From: a virus
Direction: 5' to 3' (one strand)
DNA: 64,000 nucleotides
IMG/VR virus record: IMGVR_UViG_3300042367_000228
Span: 1 to 64,000 of that record
The notes under the pieces are model-generated. The model worked only from the letters and a program-made list of their open reading frames with translations. It was not told the origin of the DNA and did no database searches. This document shows, in pieces, positions 1,403 through 23,781 of this stretch. Both the position numbers and the translations under genes were made by a program. Every line of letters starts with the position of its first letter. The stretch's first letter is position 1.

Positions 1403-3168
1403 TGATTTTCCATTTTAGCTTTATGTGAATCAACTCGTTGTTGAAACTGTTCAGGTGTAATATTCGTACCGTGCGTTTGCAGTCCTTTGTAAACTATATC
1501 AGCTATTGCTGGATCTCTAGCTGCAGCAGTCATTACGGGAACAGTAAGCAGAAGGATTGCTCTTGGCACACTCGTAACGTATGCTTGCATTACCACTGGA
1601 GTTATTTGAGTTGGATCTAGACCATTAATTCCAGTAGATCCTTTTTTGCTAAAGTACTCATTCCATTGTTCAAAGGCGCTCAAATCTTCAGTATTCTCTA
1701 TACCTAACGCTGCAGGGAATTTAGCAGCGTATTGGCTCCATACTTCTGGATTGGTTTTAATAAAAGGTTCAGCGTCAGGCCAACGTTGTTTCATTACCCG
1801 TGCTGCGTATAGTGCTGCTAGTTGTGCTCTATGGGGATGATTAGATTCTAATATGTCTTGTGCTAACGCTGGCCAATCAGTTATGCCAAATCGTCTAGCG
1901 TATTCAATTAGTTCAGATACTTGATCATAATAGCTAGCAAGTAAATCAAGATGTAACCATTCTACTAATTTTTCTTCAGCTTTGGGCCAACGTTTTTTAA
2001 GTACATTAGTAGCGTAGTCAACTAATAGTTCAGGATTGTTGCTTTCTAGCATGCTAGGTTCAGCTTCAGGCCATGGGGTAGTAACATTATCTCTAACATA
2101 AAAATATGAATATCTACTACTTGAGAACGGCATTCTTTTAAGTATCTCAGGTTCAATCTCTGGGCAGCGTTCTTGTACCTGGCCAACATATTCTCTAAAT
2201 GCGTGTTGGTTATTTTCTTTAAGTATTCTAGCTTCAAGTCCTGGCCATCTTTGTAGTCCTATCACATTATTCCAATACCCAAAGCAATCTCCTATGGAAG
2301 CAAAGTTTAAAAGGTATTGTTCTATTTTTTCGTCTCTGCCATTTTTTTCTGTGTAATCAATTACGCGGTCAATGTCGATTGATTTGATCTTTGGTTTGTT
2401 TTCTTGTTTTCTAGTAACTAAGGCAGTATCTATATGTTTGAATGCTTTTTTACTAAAGAATACTGCTTGGCATGGTTCTGCTTCATGTATAACAGCGTGG
2501 AATTCGTCAACTACTAGTTGAATGCCTAGTCCGCGGAATACAGAAGACCAATCGTTAGTTACGCGTGTTGCAGGGTGACTTGTATCGTCTTCGTAATCGT
2601 AGCCGGATCTAGACTCTTTGCGTTTACGTAATTTTTCATAAGCTATACTTCTAGTAACCGTCCATAGTATTGCAGCAGGGCCTTGTGTTGGGATTTCGTT
2701 ATAGTAACCTTGAAATTCTGTAGCTCGGGATTTCTCTCTGCTTATAGCGCCGTCACTAAGATGATATTGTTTTTGCAGTTTAGCTAAGTCTTTTTCTAAG
2801 TCATCTTCAGTATAGTTAGAAGTGTTTGGATTACCAGATATAACTAGTGATCTGCCTGCTCCGGTATATTTAAGTACTTGTATATACGGACGTCCAGCAA
2901 CAAAATCAGGGTATTGAGTGAAATCCTTATATCGATCTACTTCATACATCTGCCAAGTTAATGCTAACGGAAAGGTATAAACACCATTGGGCGTATTAAA
3001 AGCCGACTTTGGGTTTATACCTGCTTTGTTTAAAGTTGTAAATGTTATGTAGATATCCGGGTCATCTTTATAGGGTAATAATTTCTCATATGCAGATACC
3101 TTTGGATTCTGTGCTGGTTTAGTTCTAGCTTCTATAATGTCTAGTTCATATAATTCTCTTAAGAGCAT
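1399..3168 (-). CDS. 589-aa repeat protein with a capsid-targeting-like leader
   Basis: I do not recognise a function. The leader MLLRELYELDIIEA matches the one on the next gene and carries an IIE site suited to a T4-type prohead protease. Residues about 25-260 form a compact domain (motifs NTPNGVYTFPL, FVAGRPYIQVLKY). From about 300 to 500 there are degenerate helical repeats built on a WPxAE motif (RWPGLEARIL, PWPEAEPSML, RWPKAEEKL, RWPDAEPFI), a repeat style seen in other large phage proteins. It follows gp41 directly and has a CATAAATA motif 28 bases upstream plus an AGGA ribosome site. A virion-packaged, possibly injected, protein is a reasonable inference by analogy with T4 Alt and the internal proteins. 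Confidence 0.65.
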   Translation of the reverse strand: MLLRELYELDIIEARTKPAQNPKVSAYEKLLPYKDDPDIYITFTTLNKAGINPKSAFNTPNGVYTFPLALTWQMYEVDRYKDFTQYPDFVAGRPYIQVLKYTGAGRSLVISGNPNTSNYTEDDLEKDLAKLQKQYHLSDGAISREKSRATEFQGYYNEIPTQGPAAILWTVTRSIAYEKLRKRKESRSGYDYEDDTSHPATRVTNDWSSVFRGLGIQLVVDEFHAVIHEAEPCQAVFFSKKAFKHIDTALVTRKQENKPKIKSIDIDRVIDYTEKNGRDEKIEQYLLNFASIGDCFGYWNNVIGLQRWPGLEARILKENNQHAFREYVGQVQERCPEIEPEILKRMPFSSSRYSYFYVRDNVTTPWPEAEPSMLESNNPELLVDYATNVLKKRWPKAEEKLVEWLHLDLLASYYDQVSELIEYARRFGITDWPALAQDILESNHPHRAQLAALYAARVMKQRWPDAEPFIKTNPEVWSQYAAKFPAALGIENTEDLSAFEQWNEYFSKKGSTGINGLDPTQITPVVMQAYVTSVPRAILLLTVPVMTAAARDPAIADIVYKGLQTHGTNITPEQFQQRVDSHKAKMENQ

Positions 3169-3195
3169 TGTAAATCCTTTAAATATAATTTACAA

Positions 3196-3203
3196 TATTT
3201 ATG
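3196..3203 (-). promoter_or_regulatory. Late-promoter-like motif CATAAATA
   Basis: On the minus strand this reads CATAAATA, one base off the T4 late promoter TATAAATA. It lies 28 bases before the 589-aa gene and immediately after the gp41 stop. Confidence 0.45.
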
Positions 3204-4613
3204 CTAAAATTCGTCTACATCTAAATTGTTTATCAGGTCTCTAAGTGCAGTACTTTGTATGCTACCATTAACCTTTGCTACAGGTTTTCCGTCTGGATCT
3301 TGTGTAGTGCCGCGTGCCTTAATTGAGTTTAACAGTGCATTGCCTGCTGTGGGTGTAGATGTATTACCGTAGCCTTGATCTTCATCGATGTCTGTAATAC
3401 GCAATGTATCAATATCATATCCTAAATCGATCTTCATGCCAACGCCAGAACTGCTACGTGTTTTCATAAGCTGGATTTGATATCTACCACGCTCGCGCAT
3501 AGCTCTACTTGTAAAGATACCAAATACGTTATCTGCAGTTTGGATCTTACTTAACCCACCTGATATATGACTATGATCAAATTCTACTTCTTCTACTGCA
3601 CCCCTATTAAGCTGTGCCGCAGTAACAAACACACAATTCTTTTCTACTGCTAAGTTTCTTAATTCTTCTGATACATATTTGTCTTTAATGAATAAGTCTG
3701 CTGGGCTAATCTTTTTACTCATTGGCATTAACAAATCCAAGTAATCTACTAGTAATACGTCAACTTTTCTATCTGTTTTAATTTCATATTCTTTTAAATA
3801 ACTTCTAATATCGTTAGCAGTTTTACCTGATGGCATATATTTTACTTGTAATGATCCTGATTTCTTAGCAGTCATTTTAACTTTAAGTTCTACATCATCG
3901 ATATTTTTAAATACTTCTCTAGTCGAAACGCCTGTTATCATACTATCAATACGCATAGATACAAGTTCTTCACTAAGTTCTAGTGTTAAATAAACTACGT
4001 TAAATCCTGCTAGTGCCCAGTTAACACCTAAGTTAGCTAGGAATAAACTCTTACCTGCGCCTGACCCACCTGCAAAAATATTAAGCTCTCCCCTGTTCAT
4101 ACCACCGAACAGTTTGTCATCCATGTTCTTCCAACCTGTAGATACTTGGCCGTTCTTGTCTTTAATCTTCATTAATCGTTCACGCGGATTAGCAAAGTAG
4201 TCTGTACCTAAATCTTTTTGTAAGCCAATTTGTACTGCTTGTTTAATTTTATCTTCTACTGGACCGTATTCGCCTTTTTCAAGTAAGTCGGCTGATTCAT
4301 TAATAGCACGTTCTAATCCTTTGTGTCTAATAAATGTTTCAAAGTCGTTAAGCAGCCAATCATAATGTTCTTCTTTGAGTCCGTCTACTTCTTTAAAGTC
4401 GCTCTGCGTAGCAGCGTTAATTATATCGAAAGTTGGCATTACGTTGTGTTCGTCAACGTAACTGTTTATAAAGTCTGCTGATTTTTGTAATTTACGATCG
4501 AATAATCTGTAATCAAATATGGATTGGCATCTAACAAATGTAGCTGCATCGCTTATCATCATTTCTAAATATAACTTCTGTATATCATAACCATAGTCTA
4601 CGTTTTGTGCCAT
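3204..4613 (-). CDS. gp41: Replicative DNA helicase, T4 gp41 type
   Basis: This hexameric DnaB-family 5'-3' helicase unwinds DNA at the fork and works with the gp61 primase. It is 469 aa (T4 gp41 is about 475). The N-terminal helical domain spans about 1-140. The RecA-like ATPase domain has Walker A GGSGAGKS at 182-189, Walker B VLLVDYLDLL around 286-295 (D290), and a glutamine-bearing element TAAQLNRG further on. The start ATG overlaps the last 16 bases of gp61, consistent with translational coupling of the primosome pair. The C-terminus is a low-complexity tail ending in acidic DVDEF, which may bind partners. Confidence 0.95.
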   Translation of the reverse strand: MAQNVDYGYDIQKLYLEMMISDAATFVRCQSIFDYRLFDRKLQKSADFINSYVDEHNVMPTFDIINAATQSDFKEVDGLKEEHYDWLLNDFETFIRHKGLERAINESADLLEKGEYGPVEDKIKQAVQIGLQKDLGTDYFANPRERLMKIKDKNGQVSTGWKNMDDKLFGGMNRGELNIFAGGSGAGKSLFLANLGVNWALAGFNVVYLTLELSEELVSMRIDSMITGVSTREVFKNIDDVELKVKMTAKKSGSLQVKYMPSGKTANDIRSYLKEYEIKTDRKVDVLLVDYLDLLMPMSKKISPADLFIKDKYVSEELRNLAVEKNCVFVTAAQLNRGAVEEVEFDHSHISGGLSKIQTADNVFGIFTSRAMRERGRYQIQLMKTRSSSGVGMKIDLGYDIDTLRITDIDEDQGYGNTSTPTAGNALLNSIKARGTTQDPDGKPVAKVNGSIQSTALRDLINNLDVDEF

Positions 4614-13638: not shown

Positions 13639-14716
13639 TATTATCGTCCTCCATGACGTAATCATCTTCAATGATATCTTCAATGTCATCAAATACCACT
13701 GGTACATCAGTAAACTCGTTCATTGCTCTTAACAACGAATCATTAGTATTACTTTCCCATTCCTTACGGTACAATTTAATTTCAGTACCATCAGTTGCCA
13801 CATATTTAAGTCTATTTCCATCTTTTTTCAAGATATTCTTTTTCTCAAATAAATCAACTAAACCACTAAATGGGTTCATACCTGTAGTATATGGAATTTT
13901 AATTTGTAATGACTCAAATGGTTTAGCATAACGTGTTTTCATAATTTTACATGAGGCACGAATACCGTTAACTTCGCTAACTTTATTACCATCTTCGTCT
14001 TCTTTCAATTTAAGTTTTTTCATTGCTACTACAATACTAGATGCATAGATAAAACCTTGACCGCCTGAAATCTTATCGTCTGGATCAAACATATCTTGTG
14101 ATGCATAACTATGGTTAGTACATACTAAACCTACATTGTGACTACCGAACATATTAACACAGTTACGAACGAGTGCTGTAAGTGCTTTAGGTTTACGACC
14201 CATATCACCTTTTAAATCACCTGCTTCGAATTGATTAATATCAGTCGGAGTTAATAACATACCTAATGAATCTACTACAAACAAGACTTTCGGTTTGTCT
14301 TCCATAGCTTTGTATTCTTTCATAAACTCACTTATAGTTTTAGCTACGTCATCAATCATAGCCATGTTAAGTTTAAGAAGTTTTTCTTCACTTGTATCTA
14401 CACCTAGTGCGTGTAGCCAAGCTTCGTCTAGTGCGTTTTCAGAATCAATCAATACTACATAAATTTCTTGTTCTTGAGCGTGTTTAATGATATTACCTGA
14501 GCAGATGTAACTTTTACCTGCACCTGATTCGCCTGCAAACACAGTTACTTTGCCTAATGGAATACCTTTGTTGAAATCTGAACTAATAAGATAGTTCAAT
14601 GCGAAATTGCCAGTACTTACCCAATCTGTAGGATCATTAAAGCCTACACCTAAGCCGTCAATGCTTTTTGTTAGAGTTTTTCGAAATTTTGTTAAATCAA
14701 AGGGACGAGTAGCCAT
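13628..14716 (-). CDS. uvsX: UvsX RecA-like recombinase
   Basis: UvsX forms filaments on single-stranded DNA and carries out strand exchange in phage recombination-dependent replication and repair. It is 362 aa (T4: 391). It has Walker A GESGAGKS at 62-69, the catalytic region [13 protein letters not shown], Walker B-like [12 protein letters not shown], and the L2/ISGGQ element [10 protein letters not shown]. The acidic C-terminus ([18 protein letters not shown]) is typical. The ribosome site CGGAGATAACTA lies within the end of the upstream endonuclease gene, which overlaps uvsX by 20 bases out of frame. The first seven codons are nearly duplicated at the start of that endonuclease gene. Confidence 0.95.
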
Positions 14717-15461
14717 TAGTTATCTCCGTGTGTAGTTTTCTATTTTCTTTTTTGTTATGTTTGCCAAACCGATCTTTACGTTCTTCTGCTGTCATTTTAG
14801 ATATTTGTTCTTTCTTTATATTACTCATTTTTTTACATATTTCTGCATTATGAGTATACTCTAATTTTGCTTGAGATTCTCTCATTTTTCGTTTAGTTTC
14901 ATCAGTATGCTTCATACCAATATGTCCATTAGATTTACCTTTTTTTGCTAAAGAAATTGCCAATTTTCTCTCTTCAGACATAGGACCTCTAAGTTTTCCA
15001 CTCAATGATGCTTTTATTTTTTGACGCTGTTCGTTAGTAAATCCTCGGCGTTTAGCAGATGCACTCATTTTCTTAATAGTTTCCACTGAATGACGCTTAT
15101 TGAGCATTCCGGTGATACCTTGTTTAATATTCTCTCTCATTTTTTTTCGAGTTAATGGTCCTGGATTTATTAATCCATCGCCTCCATCTGTTAAATTGTG
15201 TAATATACCGGTACCTATATCTTTTCTACCATAAAAAGATATTAAATCTATTTCTAATGAAATTGCTGCTGACTCAAATAAATTTTCTTTTATGAATTTA
15301 ATTTTTGATTTATCTTTTGGAACGCTGATTCTACCATGCGTCTCAAAAGCTCGATTTTTTTTACCTTTACCGATATAATACGGTGTATTATCAGATTTTC
15401 TTAAATAACTGTAAACATAAAAAATAGGGGTATGATTATTATCAAAGGGTTTTGTTGCCAT
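14697..15461 (-). CDS. GIY-YIG homing endonuclease between gp32 and uvsX
   Basis: This is a 254-aa free-standing homing endonuclease. The GIY-YIG domain is seen as IFYVYSY, then [13 protein letters not shown], with the catalytic Glu in [11 protein letters not shown]. After about residue 100 come several NUMOD3-type DNA-binding repeats ([51 protein letters not shown]). I chose ATG 15461 (MATKPFDNN) because GGAG lies 7 bases upstream; the frame is open ten codons further. Its first seven codons copy the start of uvsX, and its tail reads out of frame through the uvsX start, so it appears to have inserted at the uvsX 5' end and taken over its initiation signals. Confidence 0.9.
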
Positions 15462-16723: not shown

Positions 16724-17728
16724 TTACCATTTTGCTAATTGTACTATTCTAGCTAAACTATCTTCATTTTTAAACGAAACTGATTCAGCAGTTTGTTGTT
16801 GTGTCGCTGTTCCTGGAAACACTGTTACACCTTCTGGTTTTTCCGGAGGTGGTGTTTGAATTGATTGGCCAGCTTCTTGTTGTTGAAGAGACCGTTGCAG
16901 CTGTCCAAGTGCAGAGCTATTATACGCTGATTGTTGGGCAGGTGCTGCCGGAGCTGGTGCTTGTTGGCTTTGGAATGCAGGAGTAATTGCCGCTGCGCCT
17001 GCCGGAGCTGGAGCCGGTGTTTGGGCTGGATTCATATTCTTAATTGCTGCATCATATGCTGCTTTTTGAGCAGGATCCGTCGGAACTGCAGGAGCAGGTT
17101 TACTAGGATCCATATTGTTAGTAGCTTGTACACCGGCATCACGTTTATCTGACTTTGCTTGCCAATCCATTGCTTGTTGTGTTTTAGGCCCCATAATGCC
17201 GTCAGCTTTAAGTGGATAACCTTTAGCAATTAAATCTTGTTGGATTTTTACTACTGCAGGATCTGGCTTAGCTGCAGGAGCTTGTTGCTTTTGTGCTGTT
17301 GTAGCTGCTGGTTTAGCTGCAGGAGCTTGTTGTTTTTGTTGTGCAACAGGTTTACCGCTTGTTCCTTGTTGCTGCGGTGCATTAACATCGATACCTGCCA
17401 TTTTTGCAGGATCTGTGTTATTCCAACCTTGTGCTACGCCTTGTCCAAAATTTTGAGCACCTTGAACAACAGTATTAGCTGCATTACTTGCTGCATTTTT
17501 CACAGCATCAACTGCGCCGCCTGCATGGTTATATGCATACTGCCCGGCATCAGCAATTGCGCGTGGAACAGCAGTAGCATATCCTGCTGCGCTGCCGAGT
17601 GCATTGCCCATTGATTGCATTATCCCGCCTTGCGGTTGCTGTGTTGCTTGTGCAGCTTCGTACATTGCTAACTTTTCATTTAGTTGATTAACTCTAAATA
17701 AAAGTGCGTTTTCTGTAATTTTTTTCAT
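16724..17728 (-). CDS. Peptidoglycan-binding-domain protein, paralogue A
   Basis: A 334-aa protein with one PG_binding_1-type repeat at about 156-191 (DPAVVKIQQDLIAKGYPLKADGIMGPKTQQAMD is its pattern; key elements LIAKGYP, GIMGPKTQQA). The rest is Ala/Gln/Pro-rich low complexity. The leader MKKITENALLFRVNQL and the tail EDSLARIVQLAKW are shared with the next gene, and the leader contains LxE-type sites that could be cut by a prohead protease. No lysozyme catalytic domain is seen. By place and build it could be a virion-carried protein that holds cell wall during entry, or a structural protein that reuses this fold. It ends before a gap leading to gp32. Confidence 0.75.
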   Translation of the reverse strand: MKKITENALLFRVNQLNEKLAMYEAAQATQQPQGGIMQSMGNALGSAAGYATAVPRAIADAGQYAYNHAGGAVDAVKNAASNAANTVVQGAQNFGQGVAQGWNNTDPAKMAGIDVNAPQQQGTSGKPVAQQKQQAPAAKPAATTAQKQQAPAAKPDPAVVKIQQDLIAKGYPLKADGIMGPKTQQAMDWQAKSDKRDAGVQATNNMDPSKPAPAVPTDPAQKAAYDAAIKNMNPAQTPAPAPAGAAAITPAFQSQQAPAPAAPAQQSAYNSSALGQLQRSLQQQEAGQSIQTPPPEKPEGVTVFPGTATQQQTAESVSFKNEDSLARIVQLAKW

Positions 17729-17730
17729 TG

Positions 17731-18675
17731 TTATCCTCTTGCTAGTTGAATGATTCTAGCTAAACTGTCGCCTTGACTAAATGTTACATGTTCTGCAATC
17801 GGATCTGCATGATCAAAATCTCCTTGCGTATTATCGAATGGTTCAGACGGAGCAATTGACTGATCCATGTCTGCTTTTAATTCATCATAACCTGTAATTC
17901 TATCTTGGGTATTAGCTGATTGATTTTCCCAATCAATTGCTTGTTGTGTTTTAGGTCCTAAGATACCATCGGCTTTAATAGGATAGCCTTTAGCTTGTAG
18001 TTCATATTGTAACTTTTGTACAGCTGGATCAAACTTAGCTTTAGGCGTTTTTGGTTGTCCTGCAGGATGTGGTTTATCAGCATGTGGTGCAGTACTATAA
18101 GGATGTACCGCATCTAAATCTGATGGTCCACTTAAATCATCTACCGGTGGATGATCTTGTGCATAGCTAGTATCAGATGGATTAAACTGATGTGCTTGCG
18201 GAGTCGGAGCAGCATATTCATGCGGTGCATTAAGCATACTGTTTGCAATATCGGGTGCATCACCTGCGCCAACTGATGCACTTTTTGCTGAAGGCATGTC
18301 GGCTACACCACCGCCGAATCTATCAATACCCCAATCATTTGCGTCTTGTGTAAACGTTTTATTTACGTGGTTTGAGATATCATTATATGCACCTTTTCCG
18401 ACTGCGCCAATCCCGCGGGCAATTTCTTTTGCAACTTTTGGACCTTGATTAATAAGTGGATCACCTATACTATGTCCAATTCCAGATGCTAAGTCGCCAA
18501 CTGCATTATTGACATTATCTTTACCTGTATTCATGTAGTCGCTAAAGTTTTGCATTGGATGTTCTGTTGCACCGATTACATTAGGAGCATCTCCGAATGC
18601 ACCTTCAATCAATGCCATTGTTTCTCTTAGAGATTTAACGGAATCTAGAAGTACGGTTTCTGAAATTCTTTTCAT
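17731..18675 (-). CDS. Peptidoglycan-binding-domain protein, paralogue B
   Basis: This 314-aa protein is a paralogue of the downstream gene: same leader pattern (MKRISETVLLDSVKSL against MKKITENALLFRVNQL), one peptidoglycan-binding repeat at about 216-252 (ELQAKGYP, GILGPKTQQAIDW) and the same tail (GDSLARIIQLARG). The leader carries LRE and LIE, matching the T4 prohead protease consensus. The middle is disordered, rich in Asp, Ser, Pro and His. The start has an AGGAATAATT ribosome site within the last 41 bases of the 775-aa gene, so it is co-translated. The duplicated pair differs mostly in the linker. Confidence 0.75.
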   Translation of the reverse strand: MKRISETVLLDSVKSLRETMALIEGAFGDAPNVIGATEHPMQNFSDYMNTGKDNVNNAVGDLASGIGHSIGDPLINQGPKVAKEIARGIGAVGKGAYNDISNHVNKTFTQDANDWGIDRFGGGVADMPSAKSASVGAGDAPDIANSMLNAPHEYAAPTPQAHQFNPSDTSYAQDHPPVDDLSGPSDLDAVHPYSTAPHADKPHPAGQPKTPKAKFDPAVQKLQYELQAKGYPIKADGILGPKTQQAIDWENQSANTQDRITGYDELKADMDQSIAPSEPFDNTQGDFDHADPIAEHVTFSQGDSLARIIQLARG

Positions 18676-20967: not shown

Positions 20968-20975
20968 TATTTATC
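20968..20975 (-). promoter_or_regulatory. GATAAATA motif 5 bases before an ATG
   Basis: Minus-strand GATAAATA overlaps the TerL-C stop region and lies 5 bases before the start of the 775-aa gene. The same geometry occurs before the 370-aa tube-like gene. It is either a promoter giving a leaderless message or an A/U-rich initiation element. Confidence 0.35.
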
Positions 20976-22083
20976 ACATATTAGAGGAAACAAATATTGG
21001 TAGAGGTGCTTCCCAGTCCTCAATTCTTTCTTCAATTCGCATTCTTTCAAATACCATAGGATCCCATTCTGCTAGTATATCAATCATTCTTACTACTAGT
21101 AATAGTGCTGCTACTAAGTCATCATGTTGCCCCGGTTTACCTTTAAAACTAATACCATGCGCAATAAAAGATTTCAATTCAGTAATTAATGGTTTACTGT
21201 TGATAGTCATTTTATCTTCTTCTACAAAATATTTTAATTTTGAACACGCTGCTATTTTATTATTAAAGGTAGTATTAAATCCTTTGCGGAATTTACGAAC
21301 ATGCCCTTTTCTGCCAGGTTCACTCACAAACAACCCTGGAAATGATTCTTCTCCTAAATTTTCAACTACTACTAACGCGCTTTCGCCTACGGTATTGTTT
21401 TCTATTGACCAATATATAGAATTATATTGATCATATCCTAATTCATCTTGAATGTATAATAGAATTTCTCTAAGTAACTTTACTTGTCCTTGAATAGGTG
21501 TAATGTTATGATGCCATTCTGCTACTTGATTCATCGATGGTAATTCAAAAACTGTTATTGCTGAAAAGTCACCACCAGTTCCTAAACTAGGATCTAATGC
21601 AATCAAGTATAAATTACCAGCTGTTGGAGCCTTATACCAACGTACTTGACCCATTTTCATTATAGGTTCTTTACCGTATAATTCTACTAACTTTAAACTG
21701 CTAATAAGAGTTTCGTCGTATACTAAAAATTCGCAATTTTTGATTAGAACGTTATTTGCATAATACCTGTGATTCTGTTCAACATTAAACAGATCGTATA
21801 CTGGTTCTTCATCTAACAGCCACTTAACAGACACGACATTATCAAGTTTGCCATTAACTAAAATTTTTTGTTTAGGCAATAATAATCTACCTTCTATCGG
21901 TTTAAACCCATTAAGAAAATATTTATGATCAGGAGTGCTTTTAAGTGAATGACGTTGTGTAGTTACATGAAGTATCTTTTTAACACCTTTAACTAAGATT
22001 CCGTCAAACTTGCTCCAGCCGGTGTCAGTTAGCACCGTTAATCCTAACTTATTTTTTATTAATTCTTCCGCGTGTAAATCCAT
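20974..22083 (-). CDS. gp17: Terminase large subunit C-terminal half fused to a split C-intein
   Basis: Residues 1-116 are a C-intein: TPDHKYFLNG is intein block B, and VYDLFNVEQNHRYYANNVLIKN-C covers blocks F and G, ending in Asn with Cys+1 (codon 21735-21733). Residues 117-369 are the nuclease half of TerL: ALDPSLGTGGDFSA (first acidic motif), IYWSIENN and HDDLVAALLLV (third motif). Splicing with the upstream N-half gives KFRREYG-CEFLVYDE, a continuous TerL sequence of about 530 aa. I recall the AceL-TerL split intein at the same CEF site. The penultimate residue is Lys rather than His. ATG 22083 has AAGGA upstream and lies within the endonuclease gene. Confidence 0.93.
   Translation of the reverse strand: MDLHAEELIKNKLGLTVLTDTGWSKFDGILVKGVKKILHVTTQRHSLKSTPDHKYFLNGFKPIEGRLLLPKQKILVNGKLDNVVSVKWLLDEEPVYDLFNVEQNHRYYANNVLIKNCEFLVYDETLISSLKLVELYGKEPIMKMGQVRWYKAPTAGNLYLIALDPSLGTGGDFSAITVFELPSMNQVAEWHHNITPIQGQVKLLREILLYIQDELGYDQYNSIYWSIENNTVGESALVVVENLGEESFPGLFVSEPGRKGHVRKFRKGFNTTFNNKIAACSKLKYFVEEDKMTINSKPLITELKSFIAHGISFKGKPGQHDDLVAALLLVVRMIDILAEWDPMVFERMRIEERIEDWEAPLPIFVSSNM
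21736..22083 (-). mobile_element. Split intein, C-terminal fragment (about 116 aa)
   Basis: The fragment starts MDLHAEELIKNKLG and ends ANNVLIKN. It contains the block B histidine (TPDH) and the terminal Asn. It pairs with the 31-aa N fragment at 22858-22950. The long C part with a very short N part is the atypical split described for the AceL-TerL intein. Confidence 0.88.
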
Positions 22084-22843
22084 CAAGTTCTGTTCCTTCT
22101 TTAAATTGTTTGTTAATTACTCCATTATTATACCAACACATGCCTCTCTTTGATATTTGTAATCTAGGAAGTCTTCCCTTAACAAATCCGTCAGGGCATA
22201 TATCTTTATAGGTCTCAATAACTCCATTATTAAACCATTGTTTGTCTTTTGCTGATCCAGGTTTTCCTTTTTTGGAGTCACTTATTTTTTTTGCTCTTAT
22301 AGGACATTTGTTAAACTCATAATAACCTGGTTGGCTTCTAACTAACAGTTGAGTTTCTCTTTCAGATTCAGACCATTTAGTACCTAATGTACGTCCACCA
22401 ATTCCTGGACGAGCGATACCTTTATTATATGGAATAGTTCCTTTTCTCTGAATACTCATTAATTGTTTGGTTTCTTCAGTATGTTTAAATCCAGTACACC
22501 CATCTCCGCCTAGTGTTTTATTTGTTAACGGGCCGGCATGATCAATTAATCGGCCGTACTGGTTAATCAGATCAATTTCAAGAGCCTTTGCTGCAGCATC
22601 TGTTAACTCAGTTTGATACATTTCTATAACCGGAGTTAGATTTTGCGCGACTAATCTAGAAATTACCGCAACTTTTAAATGATTACACGTAGTTTCTGCA
22701 GTTTCTGATAAATGATCTTTATATCGCCTACCGTGGCCCTTCCCAATATAAAACGGTTGATTTGCTAAAATACTCATATAACTTACTGTGATGTTAATTG
22801 GGGTTTTATAAATATATACATAATACATGCTAGTATTTATCAT
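22049..22843 (-). CDS. GIY-YIG homing endonuclease between the two TerL halves
   Basis: This 264-aa free-standing endonuclease is encoded between the N- and C-halves of terL. The GIY-YIG core is YYVYIYKTP then PFYIGKGHGRRYKDHL, with catalytic Glu in LEIDLINQYGR. A NUMOD3-like element follows (HTEETKQLMSIQRKG), and two W(F/Y)NNGV..GF..GR repeats fill the C-terminus (202-261). The first ATG is at 22843; a second at 22828 (MYYVYIYKT) also keeps the whole domain. The last 35 bases overlap the C-intein gene in another frame. Its likely target is an intein-free terL allele, so it would spread the split intein together with itself. Confidence 0.9.
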   Translation of the reverse strand: MINTSMYYVYIYKTPINITVSYMSILANQPFYIGKGHGRRYKDHLSETAETTCNHLKVAVISRLVAQNLTPVIEMYQTELTDAAAKALEIDLINQYGRLIDHAGPLTNKTLGGDGCTGFKHTEETKQLMSIQRKGTIPYNKGIARPGIGGRTLGTKWSESERETQLLVRSQPGYYEFNKCPIRAKKISDSKKGKPGSAKDKQWFNNGVIETYKDICPDGFVKGRLPRLQISKRGMCWYNNGVINKQFKEGTELDGFTRGRINKK

Positions 22844-22854
22844 TTCGTCATATA

Positions 22855-23781
22855 CTATGAACTTAATAATCGCATAATATCGCCCATTGTTAGTTTTTCA
22901 ATTTTTCCAGATGGCCATTTAACAGTTACAACTGAATCATGCACAATACAACCGTATTCACGTCTAAACTTTTCTTCACCTATACGACCGAGCTCTTCTT
23001 GTTTCCATTCTTCATCTCGATCTGGATGATCCCACCAGTCAGACCGGAACCCAGAAAATCCATTAATTCCGATCTTGTTTGGTTTTTCATTCCCAAACTC
23101 ATCAAAAAACTGTTGGCTTTCCTTCCATATAGTAGCAAATTGATCTTCGTCACTGTTTGGTGTAGAAGTAATAATACAACGTCCACCAGTTGCTAGTGTA
23201 GGTGATATAGAAGTCCAAAACTCTTCAGCAATGTTAGGTTGTAGGAAAGCAAACTCATCGCAATATAATAACGAAATACTCATACCCCGTCCTGTTGTGC
23301 CAGTAGTAGTTTGACTTACAATACGTGATCCATTATCAAATTCCATAGACCCTTTATTGTAACTTACTACACCTGCACGTAAGAAGTCTGGACATAGTTC
23401 GTATCCATAACGTATACGTTGCATAATCTCTTGAGCACCTGTGTACTTGTGCGCTGCGATTAAAATAGTTTGATCCGGGTGAAACATTGCATACCATAAT
23501 AAGTATGCAGATGCACATGTTGTTTTACCACTTTGACGCGGTAACATATTAATATTAAAACGATGAGCATGATAACAATTTAATAAGTTAACTTGATAAT
23601 CAAATGGTTGAAATAATAATTTACCTTTTACTGAATGTTGGATATGAAAGAAGTTTCTTGAAAAATGTAAAAATCCGTCAGCCGGATCCGAACACATTAA
23701 TATATCATTAATCTGTTGTTCGTCAAATTTTTCAGTCTTGTGTGCTTTTTTTGTAAGGACACCGTCTAGCGATTTACCCAT
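22855..23781 (-). CDS. gp17: Terminase large subunit N-terminal half fused to a split N-intein
   Basis: Residues 1-277 are the TerL packaging ATPase: Walker A PRQSGKTT at 81-88, Walker B LLYCDEFAF at 171-179 (D175, E176) and coupling motif TSTPN at 206-210. Residues 278-308 are a 31-aa N-intein starting CIVHDSVVTV and ending RLLSS before the stop. ATG 23781 (MGKSLDG) is chosen because AAGGA precedes it; the open frame reaches 16 codons further. The gene follows a strong terminator, so it probably has its own promoter or relies on readthrough. The product must trans-splice with the C-half to give active TerL, which pumps DNA into the prohead. Confidence 0.93.
   Translation of the reverse strand: MGKSLDGVLTKKAHKTEKFDEQQINDILMCSDPADGFLHFSRNFFHIQHSVKGKLLFQPFDYQVNLLNCYHAHRFNINMLPRQSGKTTCASAYLLWYAMFHPDQTILIAAHKYTGAQEIMQRIRYGYELCPDFLRAGVVSYNKGSMEFDNGSRIVSQTTTGTTGRGMSISLLYCDEFAFLQPNIAEEFWTSISPTLATGGRCIITSTPNSDEDQFATIWKESQQFFDEFGNEKPNKIGINGFSGFRSDWWDHPDRDEEWKQEELGRIGEEKFRREYGCIVHDSVVTVKWPSGKIEKLTMGDIMRLLSS
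22858..22950 (-). mobile_element. Split intein, N-terminal fragment (31 aa)
   Basis: Cys278 of the TerL N-half begins CIVHDSVVTVKWPSGKIEKL, the usual block A layout (Cys1, Asp5, hydrophobic strand, glycine turn). It is followed by a stop, then 11 bases to the endonuclease gene. As I recall, the AceL-TerL N-intein is 25 aa with similar order. Confidence 0.88.

Follow-up and report, generated by a model that had tools for sequence, protein, structure and literature searches.

A probable split-intein homing cassette with exchangeable nucleases in a phage terminase gene

Fractured genes with intervening endonucleases were reportedly described by Dassa et al. in 2009. Earlier work has described split inteins in the large subunit of the phage terminase (TerL), as well as fractured genes and GIY-YIG or HNH genes lying between the halves. 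In AceL NrdHF a split intein is accompanied by an intervening GIY-YIG gene (PMC7891396), the fractured gene for MIJ3 PolB has an intervening HNH (PMC6892783), and an intein interruption of terL with an endonuclease gene has been reported for Campylobacter phage IBB_35 (PMC3322345). The known atypical TerL split inteins have an N-intein of 25-37 amino acids (aa), and two of them, GOS-TerL and AceL-TerL, are the inteins from which the engineered consensus Cat was designed (PMC11766414). Domain swapping between phage endonucleases has also been reported (PMC10448857), and the T4 endonuclease I-TevI is autorepressed via a homing-site-like operator at its late promoter, with putative similar sites for I-TevII and I-TevIII (PMC2988022). 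The present work concerns terL in a 64,000-nucleotide stretch of viral DNA (the window; positions 1 to 64,000 of the 372-kb record IMGVR_UViG_3300042367_000228). Here terL is interrupted precisely at KFRREYG/CEFLVYDE by a 1,215-bp cassette composed of a 31-aa N-intein, a GIY-YIG homing endonuclease, and a 116-aa C-intein, with all of the cassette and terL genes on the minus strand. Taken as a whole, the locus is very probably best explained as a mobile split-intein homing cassette.

The presence of terL as two genes with an endonuclease gene between the halves, which a first-pass annotation of this DNA had claimed, is evident from the gene layout (Table 1) and from several family matches. The N-half matches Pfam Terminase_6N and the C-half matches Terminase_6C weakly; the two halves cover PHROG 36964 (terminase large subunit) at positions 434-629 and 626-865, respectively, and they match consecutive parts of T4 gp17 in the Protein Data Bank (PDB). 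As in AceL NrdHF and MIJ3 PolB, an essential gene is halved, a split intein lies at the ends, and a free endonuclease gene lies between them; the host gene is split at the intein, and intact homologues are found elsewhere. The start of the C-half falls within the last codons of the endonuclease, giving a 35-bp overlap (22049-22083). Among all testable alleles the distance from the endonuclease stop to the C-extein is 311 bp in most (range 287-317), a near constancy which argues that the overlap of the two genes is a conserved feature.

The same architecture was found in 61 distinct alleles at the terL site, a recurrence that argues against chance (relatives are given below by L numbers). A scan of viral contigs yielded 66 relatives; an intein-free terL, when looked for in these, was found in many. 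Uninterrupted TerL proteins are present in close relatives that are 83-95% identical (about 94% for L014 and L015, 83-90% for L022 and L023), and in the intact TerL of L014, L017, L018, L022, L026, and others, N-extein residues 1-277 run directly into C-extein residues 1-253. The cassette is therefore a precise insertion. Alignment of the halves with intact TerL leaves no residues overlapping or missing at the junction, and both the junction and the intein sizes given by the annotation stand.

Comparison of the window with five other carriers (L003, L004, L006, L025, L065) indicates how the cassette is inherited. The 1,215-bp unit differs from those of the five carriers at only 2-8 positions, and no two carriers differ at more than 10 (99.3-99.8% DNA identity). 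The terL flanks, however, are only 83-93% identical in the 100 bp on either side, right up to the junctions, and 70-86% identical further out; vertical descent at the flank rate would predict roughly 100-200 differences within the cassette. Consequently, the cassette must have moved recently between terL genes. On the evidence of these alignments it spreads horizontally among terL genes, and little co-conversion appears to have accompanied its movement. The annotation had called the locus a complete selfish unit, a description that gains support from near-identical cassettes in diverged terL genes, with cleavage itself presumed.

The intein resembles GOS-TerL and AceL-TerL in its host protein and in the combination of a short N-intein with a long C-intein. 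The best PDB match of the N-intein profile is CatN (6dsl_A), and the C-intein profile matches CatC (6dsl_B); both halves are thus homologous to Cat, upholding the proposed relation to the TerL split inteins such as AceL-TerL. The +1 Cys and +2 Glu are as in the CatC construct. The terminal Asn of the intein and the Cys at +1 are invariant (61 of 61 alleles), the block B TxxH is present in each of the 59 testable alleles, and Cys1 is found in the N-intein of the window and in the displayed N-halves of the relatives. Unlike GOS-TerL and AceL-TerL, the penultimate residue is Lys or Ser and never His in the 61 alleles; this residue is known to vary among phage inteins (PMC5050341). A contiguous relative, L129, is modeled as an intein fold with pLDDT 92, nearest to VidaL (TM 0.85). 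What the present locus adds to GOS-TerL and AceL-TerL is the genomic unit with its endonuclease, the empty sites, and the spread. The Pfam intein model detects no other intein in this genome, but it also misses the one in terL, so that this negative carries little weight.

Three other accounts of the locus have to be weighed. Every carrier is a metagenomic contig, so the likeness of the cassettes might reflect the close kinship of whole phages, or assembly chimeras, with no movement at all; yet the flanks diverge by 7-17% over the 100 bp next to the junction and by 10-30% farther out, the cassettes differ by less than 1%, and the pattern is seen in independent contigs from several samples, leaving this account very unlikely. 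It is also unlikely, though a little less so, that the halves stay unspliced and assemble as a two-chain terminase. Such an enzyme would have a precedent in Aeh1 NrdA, which is split by mobE and is functional in two pieces without splicing (PMC10448857, PMC3653736), and the split does fall between the two domains of TerL; against this stand the invariance of the intein residues in 61 alleles over deep divergence and the presence of the intein as one open frame in L129 and L130, which makes sense only if the intein splices. Finally, the terL of ICP1 is spliced by an intron with an adjacent endonuclease gene (PMC10448857), and a self-splicing intron might join the halves at the RNA level here as well. 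This was ruled out as a candidate because no Rfam intron family is matched in the region, even at relaxed thresholds; moreover, the frames of the N-half stop, the endonuclease, and the C-intein abut or overlap and leave no room, and the ends of the intein are the ends of the insertion. We regard an intron as extremely improbable, and protein trans-splicing of the two halves remains the preferred reading.

The enzyme within the cassette belongs to the GIY-YIG class, as annotated, by its motifs and by its match to PHROG 314 (homing endonuclease; E = 6.7e-11); a match to Pfam LEM-3 GIY-YIG (E = 1.8e-4) is below the cut-off. Its C-terminal module is 57-66% identical to that of HNH-class enzymes at the terL site, and most full-length modules are 51-73% identical to their best match in another nuclease class. 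In contrast to AceL NrdHF and MIJ3 PolB, the terL site shows GIY-YIG, HNH type A, and HNH type B domains on a retained C-terminal module, an unrelated enzyme, and re-fused forms. Between separate clades, the GIY-YIG domains share only about 24-46% identity. Seven changes of nuclease class are required on the tree of the module and 9-13 on the tree of the C-intein, exact counts being soft because the trees are quick ones with some long branches; monophyly of the GIY-YIG enzymes is rejected on both (p-AU 0.006 and 5e-9, respectively). As judged from sequence, the nuclease domain has been exchanged repeatedly while the C-terminal module was kept. The annotation had made the pairing with a GIY-YIG enzyme the special point of the locus. 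This does not hold, since AceL NrdHF has the same pairing and GIY-YIG is one of several interchangeable types here.

In L127 and L128 the whole intervening gene is replaced by one that matches DUF7487 and homing-endonuclease PHROGs. The match to DUF7487 (Pfam PF24308, E = 3e-35) is the intervening gene of the L127 cassette (2977-3999), and this position suggests that DUF7487, a family of unknown function, is a homing nuclease.

The endonuclease family is also found without the intein. In L191, L192, and L193 an HNH-type enzyme of this family is encoded immediately after an uninterrupted terL, an arrangement like that of the free-standing Seg and Mob endonucleases and of collaborative homing. 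A copy of the start of terL exon 2, together with TAAATA, lies just upstream of each of these free-standing genes; in L191 and L192 this copy is the top match of the whole locus and outscores the resident exon. The copy therefore goes with the endonuclease and not with the intein. The exons of L191-L193 themselves read CEFVQDEE or CEFLIWEE, while nearly all other TerLs have CEF[LI][VI]xDE, which fits an altered terL target that would resist cutting. Compared with Seg and Mob, these loci have both an operator-like copy and an altered resident target, and they can be compared directly with the intein-borne state. A re-fused state is seen in L130, where a single open frame runs through the intein and another frame reads NNKQFKDGTQPEGFTRGRIRKK up to a stop, which is the C-terminus of the endonuclease; this remnant indicates that L130 is a deletion derivative in which the split intein became contiguous. 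The intein of L129, a tree neighbor of L127 and L128, is contiguous too.

The exon copy is also present in the intein-borne state. In most cassettes a copy of about 21 nt from the start of exon 2 (codons +2 to +8, EF[LI][VI]xDE) is located at the stop codon of the N-half, followed by NATAAATA and then by the endonuclease ATG. When a position-specific scoring matrix (PSSM) built from intact terL exons was used, the top-scoring position fell on this element in 40 of 54 cassettes, with 30 scoring above the highest of about 59,000 background positions. In a positional control, matches to exon window +3..+24 cluster at about 86 nt in 33 of 50 cassettes and those to the overlapping window +9..+30 in 28, compared with no more than 13 elsewhere. 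Copies of exon 1 (the FRREYG side) or of other exon windows were sought in the cassette, and none occurs at a fixed position. A further idea, that each host regenerates the element from the terL exon it carries, is contradicted by L112, L115, L122, L131, L173, and L178, where the element matches the exon consensus of other TerL lineages more closely than it matches the local exon's own sequence would lead one to expect, the local exon being the poorer fit to that consensus.

The adjoining motif is of the T4 late type. NATAAATA is found no more than 60 nt upstream of 12 of the 55 genes in the window, and most relatives retain the motif as such or in a closely similar form (ATAAATA/TAAATA). Across the window NATAAATA is concentrated upstream of genes, forming a T4-like late promoter set in which some members lie only 13 nt before the start codon. 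Exact TATAAATA, considered as the promoter, was discarded, because it is rarer than chance in the window (6 occurrences compared with 14.7 expected).

The arrangement is like that of I-TevI in the T4 td intron, where a sequence resembling the homing site is likewise adjacent to or overlapping a late promoter, immediately ahead of a GIY-YIG endonuclease gene, and by this analogy the exon-2-like element looks like an operator for autorepression. The systems differ in that a split intein takes the place of the group I intron, the element is retained across changes of nuclease class, and binding is presumed here. The element could instead be a mere relic of the first landing of the endonuclease gene in terL, with no regulatory role. 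Some cassettes that appear to be in working order lack it, and its position within the overlap of coding sequence and stop codon could let it persist passively. On the other hand, the pairwise conservation of the element among distant cassettes is 0.81, compared with 0.54-0.70 for the neighboring N-intein DNA, the promoter lies directly next to it, and it is also found with free-standing endonucleases lacking an adjacent intein. We give the relic a substantial chance, somewhat below even.

In the mechanism proposed for the homing cassette, the TerL halves would be made separately and joined by protein trans-splicing into a terminase of about 530 aa. During co-infection the endonuclease would cut cassette-free copies of terL, and repair from the carrier would transfer the 1.2-kb unit in full to the cleaved terL, a movement seen in the comparison of carriers. 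Specificity would reside in the C-terminal module, most likely reading the exon-2 side of the site, with a replaceable nuclease domain; the half-site copy beside the late promoter would probably allow autorepression by the endonuclease in the manner of I-TevI, with the copy itself left uncut. By a narrow balance we also favor a wider view, in which a selfish element keeps a constant chassis of split intein, DNA-binding module, captured half-target operator, and overlapping genes, takes on different nuclease folds, and passes between free-standing, intein-splitting, and re-fused endonuclease-free states at one site in an essential gene. Several points weigh against the homing-cassette explanation. 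The penultimate intein residue in the window is Lys instead of the usual His. The endonuclease is poorly modeled (pLDDT 67; best Foldseek match, E = 0.008, unreliable), so that DNA binding by the module rests on NUMOD3 and analogy. In addition, about a quarter of the cassettes have no exon-2 element or only an eroded one (the second GIY-YIG clade, L120/L123, L125, L127/L128, and L188/L189/L195), and hence autorepression cannot be general.

Three features distinguish this family: the exchange of nucleases, the captured target copy, and the free and re-fused states. Within the open-access papers searched, a limited basis for a negative, we found no report of nucleases being exchanged at a single intein site, nor of a split-intein cassette with an operator-like copy of its target. 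The way in which inteins, introns, and free endonucleases become associated (collaborative homing) and separate again is still debated, usually from one or two examples; represented at this single terL site are empty alleles, free endonucleases beside altered targets, split inteins with multiple nucleases, and re-fused inteins with a scar. The three features make old questions testable, with one module, one half-site, and several nucleases as the predicted basis of specificity, and the modular pairs could serve as split inteins and reprogrammable nucleases.

Table 1. Coordinates of the terL halves and of the cassette in the window
Feature	Position	Strand	Evidence or remarks
N-half CDS	22855-23781	-	277-aa N-extein ending KFRREYG, 31-aa N-intein, stop
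TerL N-extein, ATPase domain, 277 aa	22951..23781	-	Pfam Terminase_6N, E 8.7e-19; PDB match to gp17 ATPase; aligns collinearly with residues 1-277 of intact TerL
N-intein CIVHDSVVTVKWPSGKIEKLTMGDIMRLLSS, 31 aa	22858..22950	-	N-intein profile, best PDB match CatN 6dsl_A, E 1.2e-6; stop codon 22855-22857
Exon-2-like element AAGTTCATAGTATATGACGAAAT	22842..22864	-	Copy of C-extein nt +4 to +26, proposed as an operator; gives the stop codon of the N-half; matched by the PSSM from intact terL exons
GATAAATA, T4-late-type promoter motif	22834..22841	-	Abuts exon-2-like element; 6-13 nt upstream of the endonuclease ATG (22828)
GIY-YIG endonuclease gene, 264 aa	22843-22049	-	Stop 22049-22051; real start may be Met6 at 22828
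GIY-YIG nuclease domain, residues 1-117	22493..22843	-	YVYIYK...FYIGKG...R...E...N motifs; PHROG 314; LEM-3 GIY-YIG
Endonuclease C-terminal NUMOD3 and double WxNNG...GxxxGR module, presumed DNA-binding	22052..22492	-	NUMOD3, E 4e-6; common to HNH-type relatives
C-half CDS	20974-22083	-	116-aa C-intein ending VLIKN, 253-aa C-extein
C-intein, 116 aa, ends IKN	21736..22083	-	Match of the C-intein profile to CatC (6dsl_B), E 1.4e-10; modeled fold of the relative in L129
TerL C-extein, nuclease domain, 253 aa, starts CEFLVYDE	20977..21735	-	Match to gp17 nuclease domain, E 5.7e-13, and to Terminase_6C; aligns collinearly with intact TerL; CDS stop 20974-20976

In the second GIY-YIG clade (L116, L171, L174-L177), which has no exon copy, a conserved hairpin, GTAGTTcgc...AACTAC, follows GATAAATA between the N-half stop and the endonuclease, and its stem varies in a compensating fashion; by analogy with the leaders of T4 endonucleases it is perhaps a different means of control. 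A second GIY-YIG gene is present in the window (14697-15461, minus strand; P0006, 254 aa, with NUMOD-like repeats), and the virus record contains a third GIY-YIG match at 154616-154909.

TerL is interrupted in other ways elsewhere. In the cultured Campylobacter phage NCTC12673 (GU296433) its two halves are encoded on opposite strands, by genes separated by about 27 kb (L220 2495-3823; L224 1411-2127); the N-half ends in ...IFIDE and a short N-intein (CVAGDTKITV...), and the C-half, unannotated in the record, starts with a C-intein ending VSHN/CAF. In LR756500 (L219, 1167-4755) TerL is fractured at the P-loop (ARQTGK/...) by another split intein with a short N-intein, and an unrelated endonuclease-like gene lies between the halves. 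The TerL gene of Salicola phage SCTP-2 (L218, 1892-5085) starts with a C-intein at the Walker B region, has a second, contiguous intein inside, and is preceded by an HNH-like gene. Further insertions at the P-loop or Walker B region of TerL are found in L016, L057, and L061; in L100, L123, L129, L152, and L169; and in L135. Several of these contain C-intein-like sequence, and some of the insertions occur together with the split intein described here.

Outside the terL locus, two adjacent minus-strand genes of the window (16724-18675; 334 and 314 aa) look like tandem paralogues and have a peptidoglycan-binding-like repeat, KxQ.xLxAKGYPxKADGIxGPKTQQAxDW.
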